Part shown: one piece after another, positions 6,470 to 16,262 of the stretch
Layout of the letters: each line of letters starts with the position of its first letter
How positions within the stretch are numbered: position 1 is the first letter of the stretch
Source of the DNA: Bradyrhizobium archetypum
GTDB taxonomy: Bacteria > Pseudomonadota > Alphaproteobacteria > Rhizobiales > Xanthobacteraceae
Length of the DNA: 64,000 nucleotides
NCBI RefSeq assembly: GCF_013114835.1
Contig: NZ_JAAVLW010000006.1
Span: forward strand, 376,001-440,000
Direction: 5' to 3'
The notes under the pieces: generated by a model
Seen by the model: the letters and a program-made list of their open reading frames with translations, nothing else
Told to the model about the DNA's origin: nothing
Databases searched by the model: none
Program-made: the position numbers and the translations under genes

Positions 6470-6847
6470 CTATGCACCCATCAGCTCGCGCAGCGTCCCG
6501 GTGATCTCGTTCACGCTGTAGGGCTTGGTCAAGAACCGTCCTCCCTCGGGGAGTTCACAGTCGCGGAGCCGGAGCCGACCCGAGGTCGCGATGATCTTGA
6601 TCGGCGGCCAGCGGTTTCGCACCAAGTGGGCTAACCGCAAGCCGTCGATCGAACCCGGCATCTGAATGTCGGTGAAGATCACGCGAATATCTGTTCGTGC
6701 TTCGAGCACGGCAATTGCCTCGGCCGCGTTTGCCGCCTCGATCACATCGAAGCCGGCATCCTCGATCATTGCTACGGCATGCCATCGCAGCATCGCCTCG
6801 TCCTCGACGACGAGCACGACCGGGCGACGGCCAGCTAAATGCTCCAT
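6470..6847 (-). CDS. Single-domain response regulator (receiver only)
   Basis: A 125-residue CheY-like receiver with no output domain. The acidic pocket is in VVEDEA (Glu15-Asp16), the phospho-acceptor is Asp60 in FTDIQMPG, Thr88 lies in ATSG, and Lys108 in FLTKPYS. Such proteins relay phosphate or work by protein contact. No kinase gene is adjacent, so the partner is not in the immediate neighbourhood. It lies just beyond tRNA-Thr in a patch of regulators. Confidence 0.9.
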   Translation of the reverse strand: MEHLAGRRPVVLVVEDEAMLRWHAVAMIEDAGFDVIEAANAAEAIAVLEARTDIRVIFTDIQMPGSIDGLRLAHLVRNRWPPIKIIATSGRLRLRDCELPEGGRFLTKPYSVNEITGTLRELMGA

Positions 6848-7301
6848 CGGACCCTGCTAACTGTCGAATTGCCGAACTTGGCGCTTTGAGACCTGCGTCC
6901 CTGCCGCAGGTGCGCTTCCACCCCATTCCTAACGTCGGAAATCGGACGTAGGCGGTGTCGAGGAGCCAATTCGCTTGTTGACTATTCGTTCCAAGGAGCG
7001 CCCAATACACAGGAAGAAGAGCCAAAGGCCGCGTCAGGATGGCTCTTGCCCGTCTAGATGACAGTGTCGGACTTCCGACAGTTGAGGGCTCTGACGACAC
7101 AGCTTTCCGATAGAAAGCACCGGCGACCTTACAGGCAGGCCCTGTACGCGATTCGGCACAAGCTTGGTCCTGAGACGGAAACCGGACGGACAAGGACCAT
7201 CAGTGTTTTTTACTGTAACTTGATCCCGCGGAGCGTCCCCTCGGAGCTCGCATCCATCATCTGCGGTAGATCGCCCGACCGACCGGGCATGGACACCGCA
7301 A
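6848..7301. other. Gene-free stretch between receiver and Crp/Fnr genes
   Basis: A 454-base divergent intergenic region. I find no ORF with family resemblance on either strand. It should contain the promoters of both flanking regulators. No FNR-type TTGAT-N4-ATCAA palindrome is present. Confidence 0.5.
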
Positions 7302-8009
7302 TTGCACGCGCCTTCAACCACGCCGCTGGACAACAAGCTGCTCGCCTCGCTGCCGCGCAGCGCGTTTGAGGCAGTCGCGGCTCATCTTACGACCGTTATG
7401 CTACCTCAAGGTACGTCCGTCTATGAAGCCGGCGGCGAGGTTGAACAGGTCTATTTCCCTCACAACGGCATGTTTTCATTGCTCTCCGTGATGCGCGACG
7501 GCAAGTCTATCGAGACCGCAACAGTCGGACGTGAGGGTGTGGTCGGCGCAATGGCGGGGTTGGGTCTCTACAAATCGCTTGTCCGCGTGAACGTTCAGTT
7601 GTCGATGACAGCCAGCAGGATATCCTCGGCAGCTTTCAGGAGAGCCGTCGCCTCAAGCCCACAGGTACGGGACATCTGCATCAACTACAATGAAGTGCTG
7701 CTAAATCAGGCCCGCATCACTGCGGCGTGCAATGCGCTGCATCAAATCGATCAGCGCTTTTGTCGCTGGCTATTGCAGTCAGCCGATCGAGCGGCAGGTG
7801 ATACCGTCACGCTGACGCAAGAGCTCCTTGCCGACATGCTTGGAGTCCGTAGGACCTCTGTGACAGAGGTGGCCGTCAGGATCCAGGAGCAAGGCATTAT
7901 CACCTATTCGCGCGGCGTCATTAAAATACTGGACCGCGGCGCGTTAGAGCGGCTGTCTTGCGAATGCTATCAGACGCTCGTCGAGCATGAGGCCACTCTG
8001 GCAAATTGA
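7302..8009 (+). CDS. Crp/Fnr family transcriptional regulator
   Basis: A 235-residue DNA-binding regulator. Residues about 20-130 form the cyclic-nucleotide-binding-like beta-roll (VYFPHNGMFSLLSVM, ETATVGREGVVGAMAGLG). Residues about 165-220 form a winged helix with LTQELLADMLGVRRTSVTEV. It lacks the N-terminal cysteine cluster of oxygen-sensing Fnr, so it is probably not an iron-sulfur sensor. The only usable start I find is TTG at 7302; an ATG at 7289 is out of frame. Ligand and targets are unknown. Confidence 0.88.
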   Translation: MHAPSTTPLDNKLLASLPRSAFEAVAAHLTTVMLPQGTSVYEAGGEVEQVYFPHNGMFSLLSVMRDGKSIETATVGREGVVGAMAGLGLYKSLVRVNVQLSMTASRISSAAFRRAVASSPQVRDICINYNEVLLNQARITAACNALHQIDQRFCRWLLQSADRAAGDTVTLTQELLADMLGVRRTSVTEVAVRIQEQGIITYSRGVIKILDRGALERLSCECYQTLVEHEATLAN

Positions 8010-8177
8010 GCGGACAGACCGTCTCGCGGAAGTCGCCGCAGCTCGTGCGGCGCGGCCGCTGATAAAGCTCATAATCCGCTGCGATGGCCGGCTTGATTGG
8101 TCGGCCGCCGGACAGACGCGGCGGCCCAAGGGTCTTTGATTACCTGGAGTGACCAAGGCAGGAGTGAGGAGGACCCG

Positions 8178-8540
8178 ATGGATCAACGGCGGAGACGGGT
8201 CAAACACGCGAAGACTTTTGAAGAGCGGCTAGCAGAAGAGGCTCAACGCTTTCAGGAGGCAGCAGACAAGCTTCCTCCGCGCACTGCCCGCGAACTGCTT
8301 CTACGGCGAGCCCGACAAGCAAGTACGGCCGCTCACATCAACGAATGGCTGACATCGCCCGGGCTGCAGCCTCCTAGGTCATTGAAAACTTGCCGGCCGA
8401 TCAGAAGAGGTAACGCCGCTGCCAAGCCAAATAGAGGCGTTCGACAAGAAGCTCGACGGCAAATGCTGGCGCCAACAGCCCGACCAACTAGCGCAAAGCC
8501 GATGTTCACGACCCGAGCGCGACATTGCGGAACGCCCTGA
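8178..8540 (+). CDS. Small conserved basic protein with an unusual C-terminal extension
   Basis: The first about 66 residues, from MDQRRRRVKHAKTFEERLAE to HINEWLTSPGLQPP, match a short conserved rhizobial protein I recognise, which normally ends right after the LQPP segment. Here the frame runs on for about 54 low-complexity residues rich in Arg, Pro and Ala and overlaps the 3' end of the opposite HD-GYP gene by 35 bases. A TAG lies out of frame immediately after the family's usual end (about 8374), which suggests a lost stop or small indel. The ATG at 8178 has a GTGAGGAGG ribosome-binding site. Function unknown. Confidence 0.7.
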   Translation: MDQRRRRVKHAKTFEERLAEEAQRFQEAADKLPPRTARELLLRRARQASTAAHINEWLTSPGLQPPRSLKTCRPIRRGNAAAKPNRGVRQEARRQMLAPTARPTSAKPMFTTRARHCGTP

Positions 8541-9543
8541 GCAGCGCTCCCTCCAGCTTGCCTTCCATGCTGCGCAGGATCTCGTAGGCGTCGGGCCGTG
8601 GCATCGGCGCCCTGTACGGCCTCGACTCGATCAGCGCCGCGAAGATGTCTGAAATCGTCAGCAACCGGACCAGATCGGAAATCTGCGATGCCTTCAGTCC
8701 ATCCGGATAGCCGGAGCCATCCAGATACTCATGATGATGCCTCACACCGTCCAGGATCTCCGGGCTGATGCCGGCGACGCCCCTCAACAGATCATATCCG
8801 ATCGCGGGATGACGCCGGATGATCGCTTCCTCGTCGGGATCGAGGCGTCCCGGTTTATCCAGGATCGACAGCGGGATGCGCGCCTTGCCGATGTCGTGAA
8901 GGGTTGCTGCCATGCCGAGCCGCGATACGTCTCGCTCGGAGAATCCGACATCCAGCGCAAAGGCGACCGCGACGCCTGTTACCAGCAGGCAGTGCTGAAA
9001 CGTGCCCTCGTGATAGCGCCGGACCTCGTCGAGCCATGTCGAAAGCCCGTCTTGTCCGACGCGCTGCACGATCTCTGACGTCGCGCGCTTCGCATCCGCA
9101 ACCTTCAGGGGCCTGCCGAGGCGCACGTTCGAAAACATCGAGGCGAAGGCGGCCGCGCCGGAGTCCATCGCCAGTGCCGGATCCGCGGCGGCCTCCGCGG
9201 CAGATTCCGCGTATTCGATCTGCGCGATCTTGGGGACAGCTTCCTTGGCGCGCGAAATGACCGCGGTCGCGCCAAGCGCATAGGCCTGCGCCACCATCGA
9301 ACGGGCGTGGGCTGGAACGACAAACAGCCGCTCCGGAACCGCGGTAAGCTCTTGCAGGATGAGCTTGAGCTGATCGGCGCGCGGCATCTGCCGCAAATCG
9401 ACGTCGACCATCAGCACGCCATGCGCCCTGATGCCGGTGCCGTCGCTATCGAGCACCCACGGCACGACGGCGTGTTGCGGCTCGAGCATGGCACGAATCG
9501 CAGGCAGCTTCGTCGGTTCGTCTGTGACAAAATAGACGAGCAT
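8506..9543 (-). CDS. HD-GYP domain protein, putative cyclic-di-GMP phosphodiesterase
   Basis: About 345 residues. The N-terminal 120 residues resemble a degenerate receiver (LVYFVTDEPTKLPAIRAMLE). The C-terminal half is an HD-GYP domain with the metal motif TLHDIGKARIPLSILDKPG and the signature HHHEYLDGSGYPDGL, both intact, so hydrolysis of cyclic-di-GMP to GMP is likely. The start at 9543 (MLVYFV) is chosen because it begins the receiver-like fold; an upstream in-frame start at 9654 adds 37 unrelated residues. The gene is convergent with the small basic protein gene. Confidence 0.87.
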   Translation of the reverse strand: MLVYFVTDEPTKLPAIRAMLEPQHAVVPWVLDSDGTGIRAHGVLMVDVDLRQMPRADQLKLILQELTAVPERLFVVPAHARSMVAQAYALGATAVISRAKEAVPKIAQIEYAESAAEAAADPALAMDSGAAAFASMFSNVRLGRPLKVADAKRATSEIVQRVGQDGLSTWLDEVRRYHEGTFQHCLLVTGVAVAFALDVGFSERDVSRLGMAATLHDIGKARIPLSILDKPGRLDPDEEAIIRRHPAIGYDLLRGVAGISPEILDGVRHHHEYLDGSGYPDGLKASQISDLVRLLTISDIFAALIESRPYRAPMPRPDAYEILRSMEGKLEGALLRAFRNVALGS

Positions 9544-9740
9544 TTCAGGAAGAATCCGTACGCACCAATAATGAAGAAACGGTCTCTCTCGATATTGCAG
9601 AACTGAAAAGAAATTGAGCAATTCTGCCGATGGTTCGCAAGACCGAGCCGACACTCGGCGCCAGCGGCATCAGACGCTCTAACTCACCCTACTCTCGGAC
9701 ATCAGGGCTACCTTGCCGTTAAGCTTCCACCCCGTATAAC

Positions 9741-9764
9741 TACGTACCTCAAACGAGGTACGTA
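9741..9764. promoter_or_regulatory. Perfect 10-bp inverted repeat upstream of the GH16 gene
   Basis: The arms TACGTACCTC and GAGGTACGTA flank an AAAC spacer, giving a perfect dyad about 70 bases before the GH16 start. There is no T-run, so it is more likely an operator than a terminator. Its regulator is unknown. Confidence 0.5.
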
Positions 9765-9776
9765 CGCCGTCCGCCT

Positions 9777-9820
9777 TTCAGAACACTATCAGATCGCGTT
9801 CAGAACACCATCAGATCGAG
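9777..9820 (+). repeat. Two tandem 22-bp direct repeats before the GH16 start
   Basis: Two adjacent units each begin TTCAGAACAC and contain ATCAGATCG; they differ at two positions. They end ten bases before the GTG start codon at 9831. They could be a tandem operator or a recent duplication. Confidence 0.6.
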
Positions 9821-9830
9821 GGCATCGTCA

Positions 9831-10850
9831 GTGACCGATCTTCCGTCGTCTCTAAGCCAATCGGCGGCCGAGGGATCGATGCTGTGCGCTTTGGTCATGA
9901 CCGGCAGCCTGTTCGCCGTGCCGGCGTTCGCGCAGGCCGATCTCGCCAACGCAACGGCCAAACTCACACTGCAGGTCGCGACCGCCATGCTTGGCGAGCG
10001 CTGCCGCCGCGTCGAGGCGCCGAACCCCGCTTCATTTGCGTCGGTGTCTTTGCACCGGACCTTCCACGACGATTTCGATACCCATCCGCTGCAGGGCGAC
10101 AGGTGGGTACCGCATTACGCCGGCGGCGCCGCCTGGCCGGAAGCGCGCTATTGGGGCGGCGATGGTTCCGATTTCAAGCGCAAGACCAGTTGGAACGGCG
10201 AGCAGCAGATCTATGTCGATCCGCGTTATGGCGGGCGGGAAACAGCGCCGCTCGGCCTCGATCCGTTCAGCGTCAACGACGGCATTCTCTCCATCACAGC
10301 CAGCCGCACCCCGCCGGCGCTGAAGAGCGTGCTGTTCAACAATGAATATATTTCCGGCGTGCTGACGACGCAGAGCCGGTTTTCCCAGAAGTACGGATAC
10401 TTCGAAATCCGCGCCAAGGTCCCGGTCGGCACCGCGGTATGGCCGGCGTTCTGGATGCTGGCCGATGACGGCGGCTGGCCGCCGGAAGTCGACATTATGG
10501 AGGGCCGCGGACAACGGCCCGGCGATATCGTGATGACGACGCATTGGCGGATTCCATCCACACAACGCATCGAATCCTGCGGATTCGATGTCAAGGTCGC
10601 GGATGCAGCGACCGTTTTTCATAACTATGGCGTGCTGTGGCAGCCGGACCGCATCACCTATTTCATCGACCGCCAGCCGGTCTCCGAGATCAAGGTCCCG
10701 GTCGGCTTCGACGATCCGATGTACATGATCGTCAATCTCGCCATGGGTTCGAAATTTTTCGAGGGTGTCGGATTCGTCGACGGCGAAACGCCGGCGACCG
10801 TCGCATTCGAGATCGACAGCATATCCGCCTACCAAATTGACGAACGCTGA
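9831..10850 (+). CDS. Secreted glycoside hydrolase family 16 beta-glucanase
   Basis: A 339-residue exported hydrolase. The catalytic motif PEVDIMEG supplies nucleophile Glu219, Asp221 and acid/base Glu224, the standard GH16 E-x-D-x-x-E pattern. Substrate-cleft sequences GYFEIRAKVPVG and AVWPAFWML are also typical. Residues 17-35 (MLCALVMTGSLFAVPAFA) form a signal peptide with cleavage after AFA. The annotated start is GTG at 9831 after a GAGGG site; ATG at 9879 would give just the signal peptide and is a fair alternative. GH16 enzymes cleave beta-1,3 or mixed-linkage glucans or galactans; the exact substrate cannot be read here. The GH1 gene follows six bases later, implying an operon. Confidence 0.9.
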   Translation: MTDLPSSLSQSAAEGSMLCALVMTGSLFAVPAFAQADLANATAKLTLQVATAMLGERCRRVEAPNPASFASVSLHRTFHDDFDTHPLQGDRWVPHYAGGAAWPEARYWGGDGSDFKRKTSWNGEQQIYVDPRYGGRETAPLGLDPFSVNDGILSITASRTPPALKSVLFNNEYISGVLTTQSRFSQKYGYFEIRAKVPVGTAVWPAFWMLADDGGWPPEVDIMEGRGQRPGDIVMTTHWRIPSTQRIESCGFDVKVADAATVFHNYGVLWQPDRITYFIDRQPVSEIKVPVGFDDPMYMIVNLAMGSKFFEGVGFVDGETPATVAFEIDSISAYQIDER

Positions 10851-10856
10851 CCGGAG

Positions 10857-12326
10857 ATGACGATGTTCGGAAAATTCTCGCGCCGGCATTTTGCGAAGCT
10901 TGCCGGCCTGTCGGCGCTCGGCATGGCCGCGCGCCCTGTCGATGCCGCCGCGCAATCCGAAGCCGACCGCCCCACACTGGCGAGTTTTCCGAAGGACTTC
11001 GTATGGGGCACCGCGACCTCGTCCTATCAGATCGAGGGCGCGGTGAACGAGGACGGCCGCGGCCGCTCGATCTGGGACACATTTTCACACACGCCGGGCA
11101 AGATCGAGGACGGCACCTCTGGCGACCGCGCCAACGAACACTATCACCGCTACAAGGAGGACATCGGCCTGATCCGGGAAGTGGGTGCAAAGGCCTACCG
11201 GTTTTCGATCGCCTGGCCGCGGGTGTTTCCGGAAGGAACGGGCAAGCCGAATCCCAAGGGCCTCGATTTCTACGACCGCCTCATCGACGAACTGCTCAAC
11301 CAGGGCATCGAGCCATACGCGACGCTCTATCACTGGGATCTGCCGCAGGCGCTCGAAGACAGGGTCGGCGGCTGGCGCTCCAGCGAAACCTCAAAAGCGT
11401 TTGGGGAGTATGCCGGCCATGTAGCGGCGCGGATCAGCGATCGCGTCAGATCGATCTTCACGATCAACGAAGCCGGAAGGTTTGTGAATTTCGGCTATGG
11501 ATGGGGCATCGATGCTCCCGGTCTCAAACTGCCGGACGCGGAAGTCAACCAGGTCCGTCACCATGTGGCACTGGCGCATGGCCTTGCCGTGCAGGCGATC
11601 CGCGCGCAGGGGCGCGCGGGCACCAGAGTGGGGCCGGCCGAAAACATCGCGGCTTGCGTGCCGGCATTCGACACGCCGGAAAACGTTCGCGCCGCCGAGA
11701 TGGCGACGCGCGAACTGAACTCAGGCTTCCTCGGCGTCATCCTGGAAGGCAGATACACCGACGGGTTTCTGCGGTTCGCCGGCAAGAACGCGCCGAGATT
11801 CACCGATTCTGAATTGAAGATCATTTCAGAGCCGAACGACTTCGTCGGTCTCAACATCTACGCGCCGCAATTCTATATCGCCGCTTCCGACAAGGCGCCG
11901 GGCTGGAGCGTGCTGCCGTTTCCCGCCTCGTTCCCGCACATGAATTCGGAATGGCTCAGAGTGGGACCGGAGACGATCTACTGGGCGCCGCGGCTGGCGG
12001 CGAAAGTCTGGAACATAAAGACCATCTATATCAGCGAGAACGGCACCTCGTCAGAAGACAAGCTGCACGCCGACGGCCAGGTCTACGACCTCGATCGCAT
12101 CATGTATCTGCGCAACTATTTGCGGCAATTGCAGCGCGCGACGTCGGAAGGCGTGCCGATCCGCGGCTATTTCCTCTGGAGCCTGATGGACAATTTCGAA
12201 TGGATCTTCGGTTACGGAAAGCGCTTCGGGCTCTACCACGTCGACTTCGAGACGCAGCGCCGGACACCAAAACTCAGCGTCGCTTTCTATCGCGACGTGG
12301 TGGCGCGCAACGCAATTGGCGTCTAG
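10857..12326 (+). CDS. Tat-exported glycoside hydrolase family 1 beta-glucosidase
   Basis: A 489-residue GH1 TIM-barrel enzyme. Typical segments are FVWGTATSSYQIEGA, YHWDLPQAL and the nucleophile motif YISENG (Glu394). The acid/base motif reads TINEA (Glu205) rather than the usual T-L/F-N-E-P, so the Pro after the catalytic Glu is lost. The N-terminus carries a clear twin-arginine signal, SRRHFAKLAGLSALGMAA, meaning the folded enzyme is probably exported to the periplasm. Most GH1 enzymes are cytoplasmic. It is co-transcribed with the GH16 gene, and together they could turn an extracytoplasmic glucan into glucose. Confidence 0.93.
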   Translation: MTMFGKFSRRHFAKLAGLSALGMAARPVDAAAQSEADRPTLASFPKDFVWGTATSSYQIEGAVNEDGRGRSIWDTFSHTPGKIEDGTSGDRANEHYHRYKEDIGLIREVGAKAYRFSIAWPRVFPEGTGKPNPKGLDFYDRLIDELLNQGIEPYATLYHWDLPQALEDRVGGWRSSETSKAFGEYAGHVAARISDRVRSIFTINEAGRFVNFGYGWGIDAPGLKLPDAEVNQVRHHVALAHGLAVQAIRAQGRAGTRVGPAENIAACVPAFDTPENVRAAEMATRELNSGFLGVILEGRYTDGFLRFAGKNAPRFTDSELKIISEPNDFVGLNIYAPQFYIAASDKAPGWSVLPFPASFPHMNSEWLRVGPETIYWAPRLAAKVWNIKTIYISENGTSSEDKLHADGQVYDLDRIMYLRNYLRQLQRATSEGVPIRGYFLWSLMDNFEWIFGYGKRFGLYHVDFETQRRTPKLSVAFYRDVVARNAIGV

Positions 12327-12556
12327 TACCGCGCAGCCTGCCGCAGCGGCGATGCGGCCTCGGGCGTGGCGCGCGGCTGGCCGTCGCTTGCCACAGCGGT
12401 GGCCGGTTCCTGCGCCAGCTTGCGCGGTGATTCGTGACCGATGAATACGCCGGCAGCAGTGAGCATCAGGACGACATAGAGTGCGAACATGCCGCCGACC
12501 CATTTCCAATAGATCTGGCGGGCCTCCGGTGTAAGGCTTTCAAGCAATCGGCGCAT
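12323..12556 (-). CDS. Small single-helix membrane protein of unknown function
   Basis: A 77-residue protein starting MRRLLESLTPEARQIYWKWV, with one membrane helix at about residues 17-40 and a Pro/Ala-rich tail. The start at 12556 follows a strong GAGGAGG site; a start five codons upstream was rejected because it would lie inside that site. Its stop codon overlaps the GH1 stop tail-to-tail by four bases. Function unknown. Confidence 0.7.
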   Translation of the reverse strand: MRRLLESLTPEARQIYWKWVGGMFALYVVLMLTAAGVFIGHESPRKLAQEPATAVASDGQPRATPEAASPLRQAARY

Positions 12557-12634
12557 GGTTATCCTCCTCATCAGGAAACCTAATAGGCTGCGTATAGTCC
12601 TCGCGTCCGATCTGGTGTGTGACGCACTTCACAA

Positions 12635-12979
12635 ATGTCGAGTTGTAATGGGGAACCCGTGACCGGAGCCGAATTGAAGAAACTTCGCCAGCATCTCGGT
12701 GAGGCCATCGGCCAGCCGTTGTCGGTAGCCGACATGGCCAAACTCTGCGGGCTCCCGGCGTCCGATGGCGCCGACACCATCCGCAAATGGGAGGTCACCG
12801 GGCCGACCGGCCCGGTAGCCGAGCTCCTGCGCATCCTAGCGATGGCCAGCGACCGCTATCCGATCCTCGAAATGTTCAATGTGTTCGACCGCCACGACGT
12901 GCCGGTAAAAGATCGCCCGGCGCGCCGGCAGGCCTTCCGCGAACAGATGCGCAGCGACGTCCGGCGCCGCATTGCTTAA
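12635..12979 (+). CDS. Small helix-turn-helix protein
   Basis: A 114-residue protein whose middle, LSVADMAKLCGLPASDGADTIRKWEVTGPTGPV, resembles an Xre-like or Cro-like helix-turn-helix in which the protein reads a target then recruits a downstream helix (AELLRILAMAS). It is probably a DNA-binding regulator. The ATG at 12635 is used; a GTG at 12659 (VTGAELKKLR) is equally reasonable and has GGGGAACCC before it. It is transcribed alone, away from the small membrane protein gene. Confidence 0.65.
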   Translation: MSSCNGEPVTGAELKKLRQHLGEAIGQPLSVADMAKLCGLPASDGADTIRKWEVTGPTGPVAELLRILAMASDRYPILEMFNVFDRHDVPVKDRPARRQAFREQMRSDVRRRIA

Positions 12980-13203
12980 GCAAAGCTTAACGTGAAGGCC
13001 GAACGGCTCCGCGAAATTAAGCCTTTGCTCACCTTTGATTAGGCCTTCATTAAGTACAAAAAACGTTTGTCGGCCAATGGGTTGGGTTACAGCCTGCTGT
13101 CACCTCGGAGTGACAGCATTTTAGATAAAAGCTGTCTAAGTGCGTGGCCATGGATGGCGCCCCGCATGGGGGTGTCGCCGAACGGTTTTCGGAGACCAGC
13201 ACA

Positions 13204-13929
13204 ATGAAGAAGATTCTCGCAGCCCTCGTGGCCATCGCAGCCCTTACCGTCGCTGTGCCGGCCGTCGGCGCCGATCTCGGCGCGCGCCCCTACTACAACA
13301 AGGCCCCCGCCTATGCGGCGCCGATCTACAACTGGACCGGCTTCTATATCGGCGGCCATCTCGGCGGCGCGTTCACCGGCAGCCACGATTTCAACGGCGC
13401 GGTGCTGAGCGATTCCAGCGCCCGCCTGCTCGGCGGCGTTCAGGCCGGCATCGACTGGCAATTCGCGCCGAACTGGGTGCTCGGCACCGAGGGCCAGTAT
13501 TCCTGGCTCGGCAAGAACAATCTCACCGCCACCTTCCCCGGCGGCTACGTCTACACCAACGACCAGCGCGGCCTCGGCTCGATCACGGCCCGCCTCGGCT
13601 ACACCTGGGGCCCGGGCCTGGTCTACGTCAAAGGCGGTTACGCCTATTCCGACAACAGCGAGAGGCTGACGCTGGCCGGTGCGCCGATCCCCTTCCTGCT
13701 CGACGGCAACCACAGCAACGGCTGGACCGTCGGTGGCGGCGTCGAATACATGTTCGCCCCGAACTGGTCGGTCAAAGGCGAATACATGTATTACGACTTC
13801 GGCAGCACCCGCTTCGTGAGCCCTGCCGCGCTGGCGCCGTTCGGAAGCTTCCACAATGACGACCATACGCTAAAGGCCGGCGTCAATTATCGCTTCAACT
13901 TCGCAGGCCCGGTGGCCGCCCGCTACTGA
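13204..13929 (+). CDS. Outer-membrane beta-barrel porin (Omp25/Omp31-like)
   Basis: A 241-residue outer-membrane protein. Residues 1-22 (MKKILAALVAIAALTVAVPAV) form a Sec signal peptide. The mature part starts with the YNWTGFYIGGHLGG motif typical of rhizobial/Brucella Omp25/31 barrels, alternates amphipathic strands, and ends in an aromatic-rich strand (GVNYRFNFAGPVAARY). The start at 13204 follows TTTTCGGAGACC; the longer frame to 13144 was rejected. A strong terminator follows. Rich upstream AT sequence suggests its own promoter. Confidence 0.9.
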   Translation: MKKILAALVAIAALTVAVPAVGADLGARPYYNKAPAYAAPIYNWTGFYIGGHLGGAFTGSHDFNGAVLSDSSARLLGGVQAGIDWQFAPNWVLGTEGQYSWLGKNNLTATFPGGYVYTNDQRGLGSITARLGYTWGPGLVYVKGGYAYSDNSERLTLAGAPIPFLLDGNHSNGWTVGGGVEYMFAPNWSVKGEYMYYDFGSTRFVSPAALAPFGSFHNDDHTLKAGVNYRFNFAGPVAARY

Positions 13930-13952
13930 GCGCTTTCAACCGCGAATTGCAG

Positions 13953-13979
13953 AAGGCCGGCTTTCATGCCGGCCTTTTT
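13953..13979 (+). terminator. Rho-independent terminator of the porin gene
   Basis: Stem AAGGCCGGC/GCCGGCCTT with a TTTCAT loop, followed by TTTTT. It lies 24 bases after the porin stop. Confidence 0.9.
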
Positions 13980-14141
13980 GCGTTGGTGCTGTGTTTTCCG
14001 GTGTGCGAAAAAACCCGGTGCAGCAAACGAGCCGAAATAATGGCGAAAATAGTCCCGTTTTTCCAAACTTGTTAACCGGGTACCGCGATACTGCCGCGCC
14101 GAGGGAACATCCCAAGGTAGCGTAGACGGGGAAGCGGGCAG

Positions 14142-16262
14142 ATGACGGCACGGTCCAAATCACGATTCAAAGGTTTCGGTGTTCGAGGCAGTCTGTTTGC
14201 CGCCTTCGCCGTCATCGCCGGCATGGCGATCGTCATCTCTGCCGGCGCAGGATTGATGCTCGGGCGGCTCGGCGGGACCATGGTGGACTTAAGCGGACGG
14301 GACATCCCCCGTCTCGCCGCCAGCCTGCAGCTCTCGGCGCAGAGCGCGAGCCTCGCCAGCCAGGGGCCGGCGCTTTTGGCCGCGCGCAGCGAACAGGCGC
14401 TGAACGATCGCACCAGGAAAATGAAGGAGACCCAGGCGGTCGCGCTGCAGAAGCTCGGCGAGATCGTCGAGCTCGGTGCGGACAAGGCGGTGGTTGCCGC
14501 GCTCACCGAGAACATGAAGAGCATCGATGAGGTGATCAAGAGCCTCGGCGCGGCCGCGCAGGAGCGGCTCGAACTGGCCGCGCAGCACGAGCGACTCTAC
14601 GAAGCCGTGCGCAAGGCACAGCGGCGTTTCATCGCCGCCGCCGGCCCCGCCGCGATCGACGCCCAAACCGACCTCTACAGCATCTACGCCGCGCCCAACT
14701 TCTCCCAATCTGACGCCATCAAGGCCCACAAGACCGCCGACCAGCTCGCCGACATCGCGGCCAGCGGCAATATGATGGCGTTCGACATGATCGCCGCGCT
14801 TTCGGCGACCAATGGTGATACGTTAGAGGCCATCGCGAAGGACTTCCGCACCGCGCAGGCGCGCGTGAAGGCGAATGCCGAGCAGTTGCCCAAGACCACG
14901 GCGATGAATGTCGTCCGGACAGCAACGCTGGACCTGCTGGCGCTTGCCGACGGCAAGAACGGCATCTTCAAGGTTCGCCAGCAGGAATTGGACGCGGACG
15001 ATTACGGCCAGACCATTCTGGAGGAAACCCGCAAGCTCAATGTCGGCCTCGGCATCAGCGTGCAGCAACTCGTCGACGCCGTGCAGAAGGAAACCGACGC
15101 GGCCGCCTGGCAGGCGCGTCAGGAGATTTCGTTCGGGACCATCGTCATGCTCGCCCTCGGCGTCGCGACCCTGGTCGGCTCGATCCTGTTCGTCTGGCTC
15201 TATGTCGGCCGCAACATCCTGCGGCGGATCAGCAATCTGCAGCGCTCGATGCAATTGCTGTCGAGCGGCGACCTCGAATCGGAGGTTTATCAAAGCCACC
15301 AGCAGGACGAGATCGGCGCGATGGTCGACTCGCTGCAGGTGTTCCGCGAAAGCATGATCCAGAGTCGCGCGCTATCCGCCGAGCAGGACAAGGACCGCAT
15401 CGCCAAGGCTGAGCGCGCCTCGCGCATGGAAGCCCGTATTGTCGAGTTCGAAAGCACCGTCCGCACCGCGCTCGAGAGCCTGCAGACCGCGGCAGGCTCG
15501 ATGCAATCGACCGCGAAAAGCATGTCGGCGACCGCCGATCAATCCAGCGCACTGGTGACGGCGGTTGCGACCGCCGCCGAGCAGACTTCCGCCAATGTGC
15601 AGACCGTGTCGTCCGGCACCGAGGAATTGTCCTCCTCGATCGAGGAAATCGGCCGTCAGGTCATCACCTCGGCGGAGATCGCCCGCAAGGCGGTCGACGA
15701 TGCCGGCGCCACCGACGCCACCATGCAGGGGCTCGCCGACAACGCCGCGCGCATCAGCGTGGTGGTCGACCTGATCCAGACCATCGCCTCGCAGACCAAC
15801 CTGCTGGCGCTGAACGCGACCATCGAAGCGGCGCGCGCCGGCGATGCCGGGCGCGGATTCGCCGTGGTGGCCTCCGAGGTGAAGAGCCTCGCCAACCAGA
15901 CCGCGAAGGCCACCGACGAGATCCGCCAGCAGATCGTCAGCATGCAGACGGTGACGGAGACGGCGGTTTCCGCGATCCGGAACATCAGCAGCACGATCGC
16001 CGAGATCAACGAGGTGACCACTGCAATCGCGGCCGCGGTCGAGGAGCAGGGTGCGGCGACGCGCGAGATCGCCCGCAACATCCAGCATGCCGCCGGCGGC
16101 ACCAGCGAGGTCTCCACCAACATCGTCGGCGTTTCCAGCGCCTCGGCCCAGGCCGGAACTGCCGCCGGCCAGGTGCTGACCGCCTCCGACGCGCTGCGCC
16201 GCGAGGCCGACGTGCTGCGCGAGGAAATCGACGCGTTCCTGACGAATATCCGGGCTGCCTAA
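14142..16262 (+). CDS. Methyl-accepting chemotaxis protein
   Basis: A 706-residue transmembrane chemoreceptor. The first membrane helix is at about residues 12-40, the periplasmic ligand domain at 41-328 is helical, the second helix is at about 330-353 ([20 protein letters not shown]), then a HAMP domain and a long cytoplasmic coiled coil. The kinase-control hairpin tip is at about residues 547-584, including [20 protein letters not shown] and [12 protein letters not shown]. It would signal through CheW/CheA to the flagellar motor; no che genes are nearby, so it is an orphan receptor. Ligand unknown. Confidence 0.95.

Follow-up and report, generated by a model that had tools for sequence, protein, structure and literature searches.

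One of the known systems close to the locus presented here is the ndvB/ndvD/ndvC system of Bradyrhizobium, the genes of which make a cyclic beta-(1,3)(1,6)-glucan. In the parts of PMC4070871 considered here, the organisation ndvBDC is reported for four Bradyrhizobium genomes; the cyclic beta-1,3/1,6-glucans of this genus affect the symbiosis with soybean, and mutations in ndvB or ndvC tend to impair it. Concerning the degradation or resizing of these glucans, nothing was found in the open-access literature, as far as titles, the beginnings of abstracts and some passages go. That a periplasmic protein which depends on Tat can act on a glucan of the periplasm has a precedent, according to the literature covered, in OpgD (MdoD) of E. 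coli. OpgD belongs to a different enzyme family and its glucan is a beta-1,2-glucan.

The window analysed in this study, i.e. the whole stretch of 64,000 nucleotides from Bradyrhizobium archetypum, contains two adjacent genes on the plus strand, a GTG-started GH16 gene for a putative laminarinase-like endo-beta-glucanase of 339 amino acids (9831..10850) and a GH1 beta-glucosidase gene for 489 amino acids (10857..12326). The GH16 protein matches Pfam PF00722 (Glyco_hydro_16) with 71.7 bits, above the gathering cut-off of 22, and the GH1 protein matches PF00232 with 470.9 bits and, over its full length, NCBIfam TIGR03356 (BGL) with 547.4 bits, which exceeds the equivalog cut-off of 478.5. No carbohydrate-binding domain was reported in either protein by the Pfam scan. 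The gap of six bases, which had been claimed from the sequence alone, was confirmed by the reading frames and consists of the spacer CCGGAG. A second in-frame ATG of the GH1 gene at 10863 has a better spacing to GGAG and would extend the gap to 12 bases; moreover, many homologues align from residue 3 onward only. Because of this ribosome-site spacing and the start points of the homologues, 10863 is the likelier start, and 12 bases may be the working gap. The GTG start of the GH16 gene is common to most of the close homologues shown.

We consider it likely that the two genes form an operon, the products of which would degrade an extracytoplasmic glucan with beta-1,3 linkages. This reading is supported by the enzyme families, the catalytic residues, the leaders, the conservation of the pair, a promoter-like block and the link to cyclic-glucan genes. 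The identified neighbours of the pair in the window, which are HD-domain, beta-barrel (small protein), MCP and MBL-fold genes and include regulators, carry no information on glucan. Nor does the pair belong to the ndv locus, since it is located on contig C31 of the source genome and beside no ndv gene, whereas the ndvB-ndvD-ndvC-like cyclic beta-(1,3)(1,6)-glucan locus is located on contig C3, with the B and D genes on one strand and the C gene on the other. There, the NdvB-like protein (892 amino acids) combines a GT2 domain (Pfam) with a part similar to NdvC-like proteins, the NdvD-like protein (179 amino acids) has no Pfam match, and the NdvC-like protein (523 amino acids) is GH17-like with a PF00332 score of 23.9 bits, below the cut-off of 28.2; these names follow from gene order and architecture, not from direct comparison with the named proteins. 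While the ndv genes make the glucan, the pair, which lies outside the ndv locus, would cut it.

The GH16 protein possesses the catalytic motif E-V-D-I-M-E (E219, D221, E224; 10485..10502 on the plus strand, by alignment), the three acidic residues of which are invariant in nine aligned sequences. The spacing E-x-D-x-x-E is found in all 77 GH16 loci from named records, which include L202, a distant match from Rhizobiaceae. The extra residue in this motif is typical of beta-1,3-glucanases and not of lichenases. The nearest folds of the structure model are laminarinases and beta-1,3(4)-glucanases (Foldseek), with moderate models (mean pLDDT of 62 for GH16 and 70 for GH1), of which the fold class was used for GH16 alone. 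The protein resembles the laminarinases with the PDB entries 5wut, 2vy0 and 3azx in the sequence of the catalytic part, the E-x-D-x-x-E motif and the predicted fold class. However, the identity amounts to only about 20-25% (Foldseek rows) and the stretch before about residue 100 is unmatched in the sequence search. From the motif spacing and the nearest folds we infer a probable enzyme of the endo-beta-1,3-glucanase type.

The sequence-only reading had described the acid/base motif of the GH1 protein as altered. TINEA is indeed present at 11460..11474 (plus strand), where the acid/base Glu205 is kept and the following proline is replaced by alanine, so that the protein departs from T-x-N-E-P, in which the proline is common but not defining. 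The catalytic nucleophile Glu394 lies in ISENG (12030..12044, plus strand). Among 12 aligned clade members, N204, E205, E394, N395 and G396 are invariant, and Q58, H159, W160, W441, E448 and W449 are also unchanged in all of them; we take Q58, H159, W160, N204, E205, E394, W441, E448 and W449 to be the glucose-binding and catalytic positions. In the 69 named-record loci holding a GH1 gene, E205 is followed by valine (39), alanine (28) or proline (1), with one unread; motif and leader are unread for L193, where the gene lies on the opposite strand. The paralogue in the same genome has cysteine at this position, and serine, cysteine, leucine, methionine or phenylalanine occur in other members. 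Proline follows the acid/base glutamate in 26 of 35 further GH1 proteins sampled and another residue in nine, two of which (L223 and L224, 64% and 58% identical) fall into the wider Tat clade, so that 7 of the 33 sampled outside this clade have no proline either. In four GH1 proteins ENG is absent from the best aligned piece, and two of these, L137 and L192, end at a contig end. Since both catalytic glutamates are kept and only the following residue varies throughout the clade, the replacement of the proline is, as far as can be read from the alignments, a mark of the clade and no loss of the catalyst, and the idea of a catalytic change had to be given up.

Two other functions were considered for the GH1 protein and rejected. 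A myrosinase-like loss of the acid/base residue does not agree with the alignments, as the glutamate is present in all clade members for which the motif was determined. Against a 6-phospho-beta-glucosidase role, four such models and two models for 6-phospho-beta-galactosidases score far below their cut-offs while BGL scores above, and E448 is retained, at the equivalent of which the 6-phospho enzymes presumably differ. Compared to the GH1 beta-glucosidases of TIGR03356, the protein is alike in the full-length match and in both catalytic glutamates, but it differs from the usual members by its Tat leader, its position in a separate clade and the replaced proline.

As the sequence-only reading had proposed, a signal peptide is recognizable in the GH16 protein and a full twin-arginine signal in the GH1 protein. 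Judged by eye, the former is a Sec-type leader (9831..9938, plus strand) with a hydrophobic core ahead of the terminal A-F-A-Q-A, and the latter a Tat leader with the motif SRRHFAK (10878..10898, plus strand). The GH1 leader follows the pattern S/T-R-R-x-F-x-K with a subsequent hydrophobic stretch; its best 12-residue window, FAKLAGLSALGM, is moderately hydrophobic with a mean hydropathy of 1.33. The two arginines are present in all 68 paired GH1 proteins of the named loci, and the source genome possesses a TatC gene. The GH16 leader of the window has no arginine before the core, while many close homologues carry several, e.g. in SERRTERL. Because of these missing n-region arginines, export of the window copy may be weaker than that of its relatives.

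The pair is widely conserved in Bradyrhizobium. At an E-value of 0.001, 179 of 265 genomes of the genus contain a match to the GH16 query and 261 a match to the GH1 query. We compared 128 strong GH16 rows, which represent the top of the matches listed down to G415 (about 60% identity or less was dropped, including one further fragment from G278), with 150 GH1 rows among the matches listed. In this comparison, 105 of the 128 GH16 genes lie directly upstream of a GH1 gene on the same strand, so that at least 105 of the 265 genomes possess the pair, and a strong GH16 match is absent from about half of the genus. In 104 of these pairs the GH1 gene follows 8-97 bases behind the end of the aligned GH16 part, counting the stop codon, and in one pair the distance is 497 bases. 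Unpaired are 23 of the 128 GH16 rows, some of which may have a weaker GH1 gene beyond the matches listed, and 45 of the 150 listed GH1 rows. In the named records, a GH1 gene follows 68 of the 77 GH16 loci, eight have none in the stretch covered, and in L193 the GH1 gene lies at the opposite end of GH16. A chance adjacency of the two genes was rejected on account of this conservation. Both genes are under purifying selection, with dN/dS values of 0.09-0.16 for GH1 (window against five relatives) and 0.15-0.24 for GH16 (window against six relatives). Nine of 12 paired loci, including that of the window, are accompanied by beta-barrel, MCP and c4 genes, L097 and L098 show a second setting, and L100 shows neither. 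As paired loci occur in different settings, the link between GH16 and GH1 is independent of one particular neighbourhood. There are also apparently broken copies, namely a GH1 gene whose match is split over two frames (G140:C1:3906117-3907540) and a GH16 gene with an in-frame TGA (G278:C1:4204663-4205612).

Neither enzyme family is new in itself; the unusual feature is a distinct clade of GH1 proteins with Tat leaders, which repeatedly meets NdvC-like and GH16 genes. In a maximum-likelihood tree of 31 GH1 proteins, the clade is separated from two outgroup alphaproteobacterial GH1 proteins by a branch of 1.62 with full support. The GH1 proteins paired with GH16 are not monophyletic in this tree, which requires four label changes, at least two of them forced by well-supported branches. 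Since the paired proteins do not group together, losses or gains of the GH16 neighbour have occurred at least twice. The clade is also present in other genera of the same family and, among 337 genomes of the class, in one other family (f68, with G731 and G637), again with Tat-like leaders. In 13 regions outside the genus (ten regions and L115, L116 and L118), the queries used revealed a GH16 gene near the Tat-GH1 gene in L116 only and an NdvC-like gene in none. In L116 (G095, another genus of the family; 7007-15346), the surroundings of the Tat-GH1 gene include an aldose 1-epimerase gene and two GH16 genes that are of another type. In the other family, L254 (G637; 6698-9901) possesses a tandem pair of GH1 genes with Tat-like leaders.

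Within Bradyrhizobium, it is the paralogous Tat-GH1 gene that is connected to NdvC-like genes. The source genome has a second NdvC-like gene on contig C2, the product of which is 62% identical to the first and scores above the cut-off for PF00332 (34.4 bits), and this gene adjoins the second Tat-GH1 gene of the genome. We compared 63 GH1 rows of the genus, i.e. the matches listed from the top to G363 apart from the GH1 type of the window itself, with 51 listed NdvC-like rows. At least 48 of these 63 paralogues have an NdvC-like neighbour (43 divergently oriented, five on the same strand); the other 15 have none among the rows compared, a number that is not exhaustive, and the weaker NdvC-like rows include some that were picked because they were visibly close to GH1. 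In Bradyrhizobium sp. ARR65 (L193), GH1, NdvC-like and GH16 genes follow each other in this order within 5.3 kb, which brings members of both families of the pair together with a glucan-making family in a single cluster. Two tandem genes of the beta-lactamase family (PF00144) are located next to the paralogous Tat-GH1 and the NdvC-like gene in L109 (G000:C2; 5600-8162), and a gene of the same cluster as these occurs near the lone GH16 gene of G303 (L121). The NdvC-like query, which also catches the GH17-like part of NdvB, matched 257 of 257 genomes. Since about half of the genus has no strong GH16 match, the pair is dispensable for the cyclic glucan.

Taking these results together with the leaders, the families and the operon-like arrangement, the idea of an exported endo- and an exported exo-enzyme acting on an extracytoplasmic glucan, which had been put forward from the sequence alone, is probably right. 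The GH16 protein would leave the cell by the Sec pathway and, as a retaining laminarinase-type endo-beta-1,3-glucanase, cut the chain or open the ring internally. The GH1 protein would fold first, exit by the Tat pathway and take glucose off the ends of the released oligosaccharides. We infer the division into endo- and exo-activity, the beta-1,3 specificity, the co-transcription and a periplasmic location. If this operon reading is correct, the preferred substrate may quite conceivably be the cyclic beta-(1,3)(1,6)-glucan of the cell itself, or the linear molecules from which it is made, a target that the earlier reading had also named and that is plausible only; the NdvC-like neighbours of the paralogous Tat-GH1 genes and the ARR65 cluster lend it circumstantial support. 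Against this substrate stand the position of the window pair away from ndv genes, the missing strong GH16 match in about half of the genus and the oligopeptide-type transporter genes upstream of GH16 in a second setting. Fungal or plant glucans from outside are a close alternative.

It is possible that the pair serves instead to scavenge such outside beta-glucans in the soil or on roots (fungal wall, callose, laminarin-like or mixed-linkage plant glucans), followed by uptake of the glucose or oligosaccharides, although we regard this tentatively. A secreted endo-enzyme together with an exo-enzyme is the classical catabolic design, laminarinases are the closest relatives of the GH16 protein, and the patchy distribution within the genus would suit an ecological trait. 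The combination found in L116, with two other GH16 genes and the epimerase gene, points in the same direction. In addition, an ABC ATPase gene (cluster c3) occurs in five of six loci of the second setting (L097 and L101-L104, not L098), and in L101 (3455-4450) and L178 (56-3858), which are those scanned, it belongs to an oligopeptide-type transporter with permeases encoded upstream of GH16. Oligopeptide-type ABC transporters can carry oligosaccharides in some bacteria, and their genes upstream of GH16 therefore leave room for the uptake of outside sugars. However, the neighbours identified around the window pair include no transporter of this kind, neither protein has a reported carbohydrate-binding domain, and it is NdvC-like genes to which the paralogous Tat-GH1 genes are linked.

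Remodelling of exopolysaccharide, with the GH1 enzyme trimming side chains, is improbable. It would correspond to the role of EglC and ExoK in other rhizobia, which are likewise GH16 glycanases and give the best NCBIfam matches of the GH16 protein (223.5 bits for EglC, NF052454, and 27.8 bits for ExoK). These scores are far under the curated cut-offs of 700 and 350, only positions 215-459 of the EglC profile are covered, and the motif and folds of the GH16 protein indicate beta-1,3-glucanases. That EglC, named a 1,3-1,4-beta-glycanase, is the best curated match even at so low a score counts as a point against the operon reading given above. Furthermore, no exopolysaccharide gene is present among the neighbours, as far as these were identified. 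The open-access literature yielded no EglC paper for Sinorhizobium. A release of aglycones from plant glucosides by the GH1 enzyme, for instance from the isoflavone glucosides that induce nodulation genes, is very improbable: hydrolysis of isoflavone glucosides is reported for beta-glucosidases of a Bacillus from the soybean rhizosphere (PMC12899959, in the part considered), but this would leave the linked GH16 gene and the NdvC-like neighbours of the paralogue unexplained.

The operon for extracytoplasmic glucan breakdown could even be part of a dedicated turnover of the cyclic beta-(1,3)(1,6)-glucan, in which the Sec-exported GH16 would open the ring and the Tat-exported GH1 enzymes of the new clade would strip off glucose, one paralogue being paired with the second NdvC-like transglycosylase. 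This extended proposal is doubtful. If it were true, such a pathway would let the cells resize or recycle the glucan as osmolarity or the symbiotic stage changes. In any case, the conserved pair and the Tat-GH1 genes beside NdvC-like genes provide concrete genes for the question of cyclic-glucan degradation. We found no paper on the pair or on a Tat-exported GH1 protein of Bradyrhizobium in those portions of the open-access literature that were covered. In the part of PMC5017801 considered, blr4657 is tabulated as 'beta-glucosidase', with no link made to the genes of the pair.

The region upstream of GH16 contains a promoter-like block, TTGCCG-N16-TATAAC (9713..9740, plus strand), which was seen in the alignment of the loci and ends 90 bases before the GH16 start. 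The pattern TTGCCGTTAAG..TATAA[CT], which was composed after the alignment had shown the block, is present in all 30 of the closest loci (the window and L035-L063) and in 41 of 106 loci overall, and its sole occurrence in the 64 kb window is upstream of the pair. The DNA flanking the block varies widely among the aligned loci, and in the more distant pairs this pattern did not find the block. A generic sigma-70 scan gave no hit and did not report the block, and a terminator scan found two terminator-like hairpins, both within genes and no more numerous than in shuffled sequences. The conservation of the block in the closest clade would be consistent with a single promoter for GH16 and GH1. Directly 3' of the -10-like hexamer lies an inverted repeat, TACGTACCTC-AAAC-GAGGTACGTA (9741..9764). 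Its left half is shared by many close homologues, but of the aligned loci only the window has the exact right half AGGTACGTA; the repeat may represent an operator or a result of chance.
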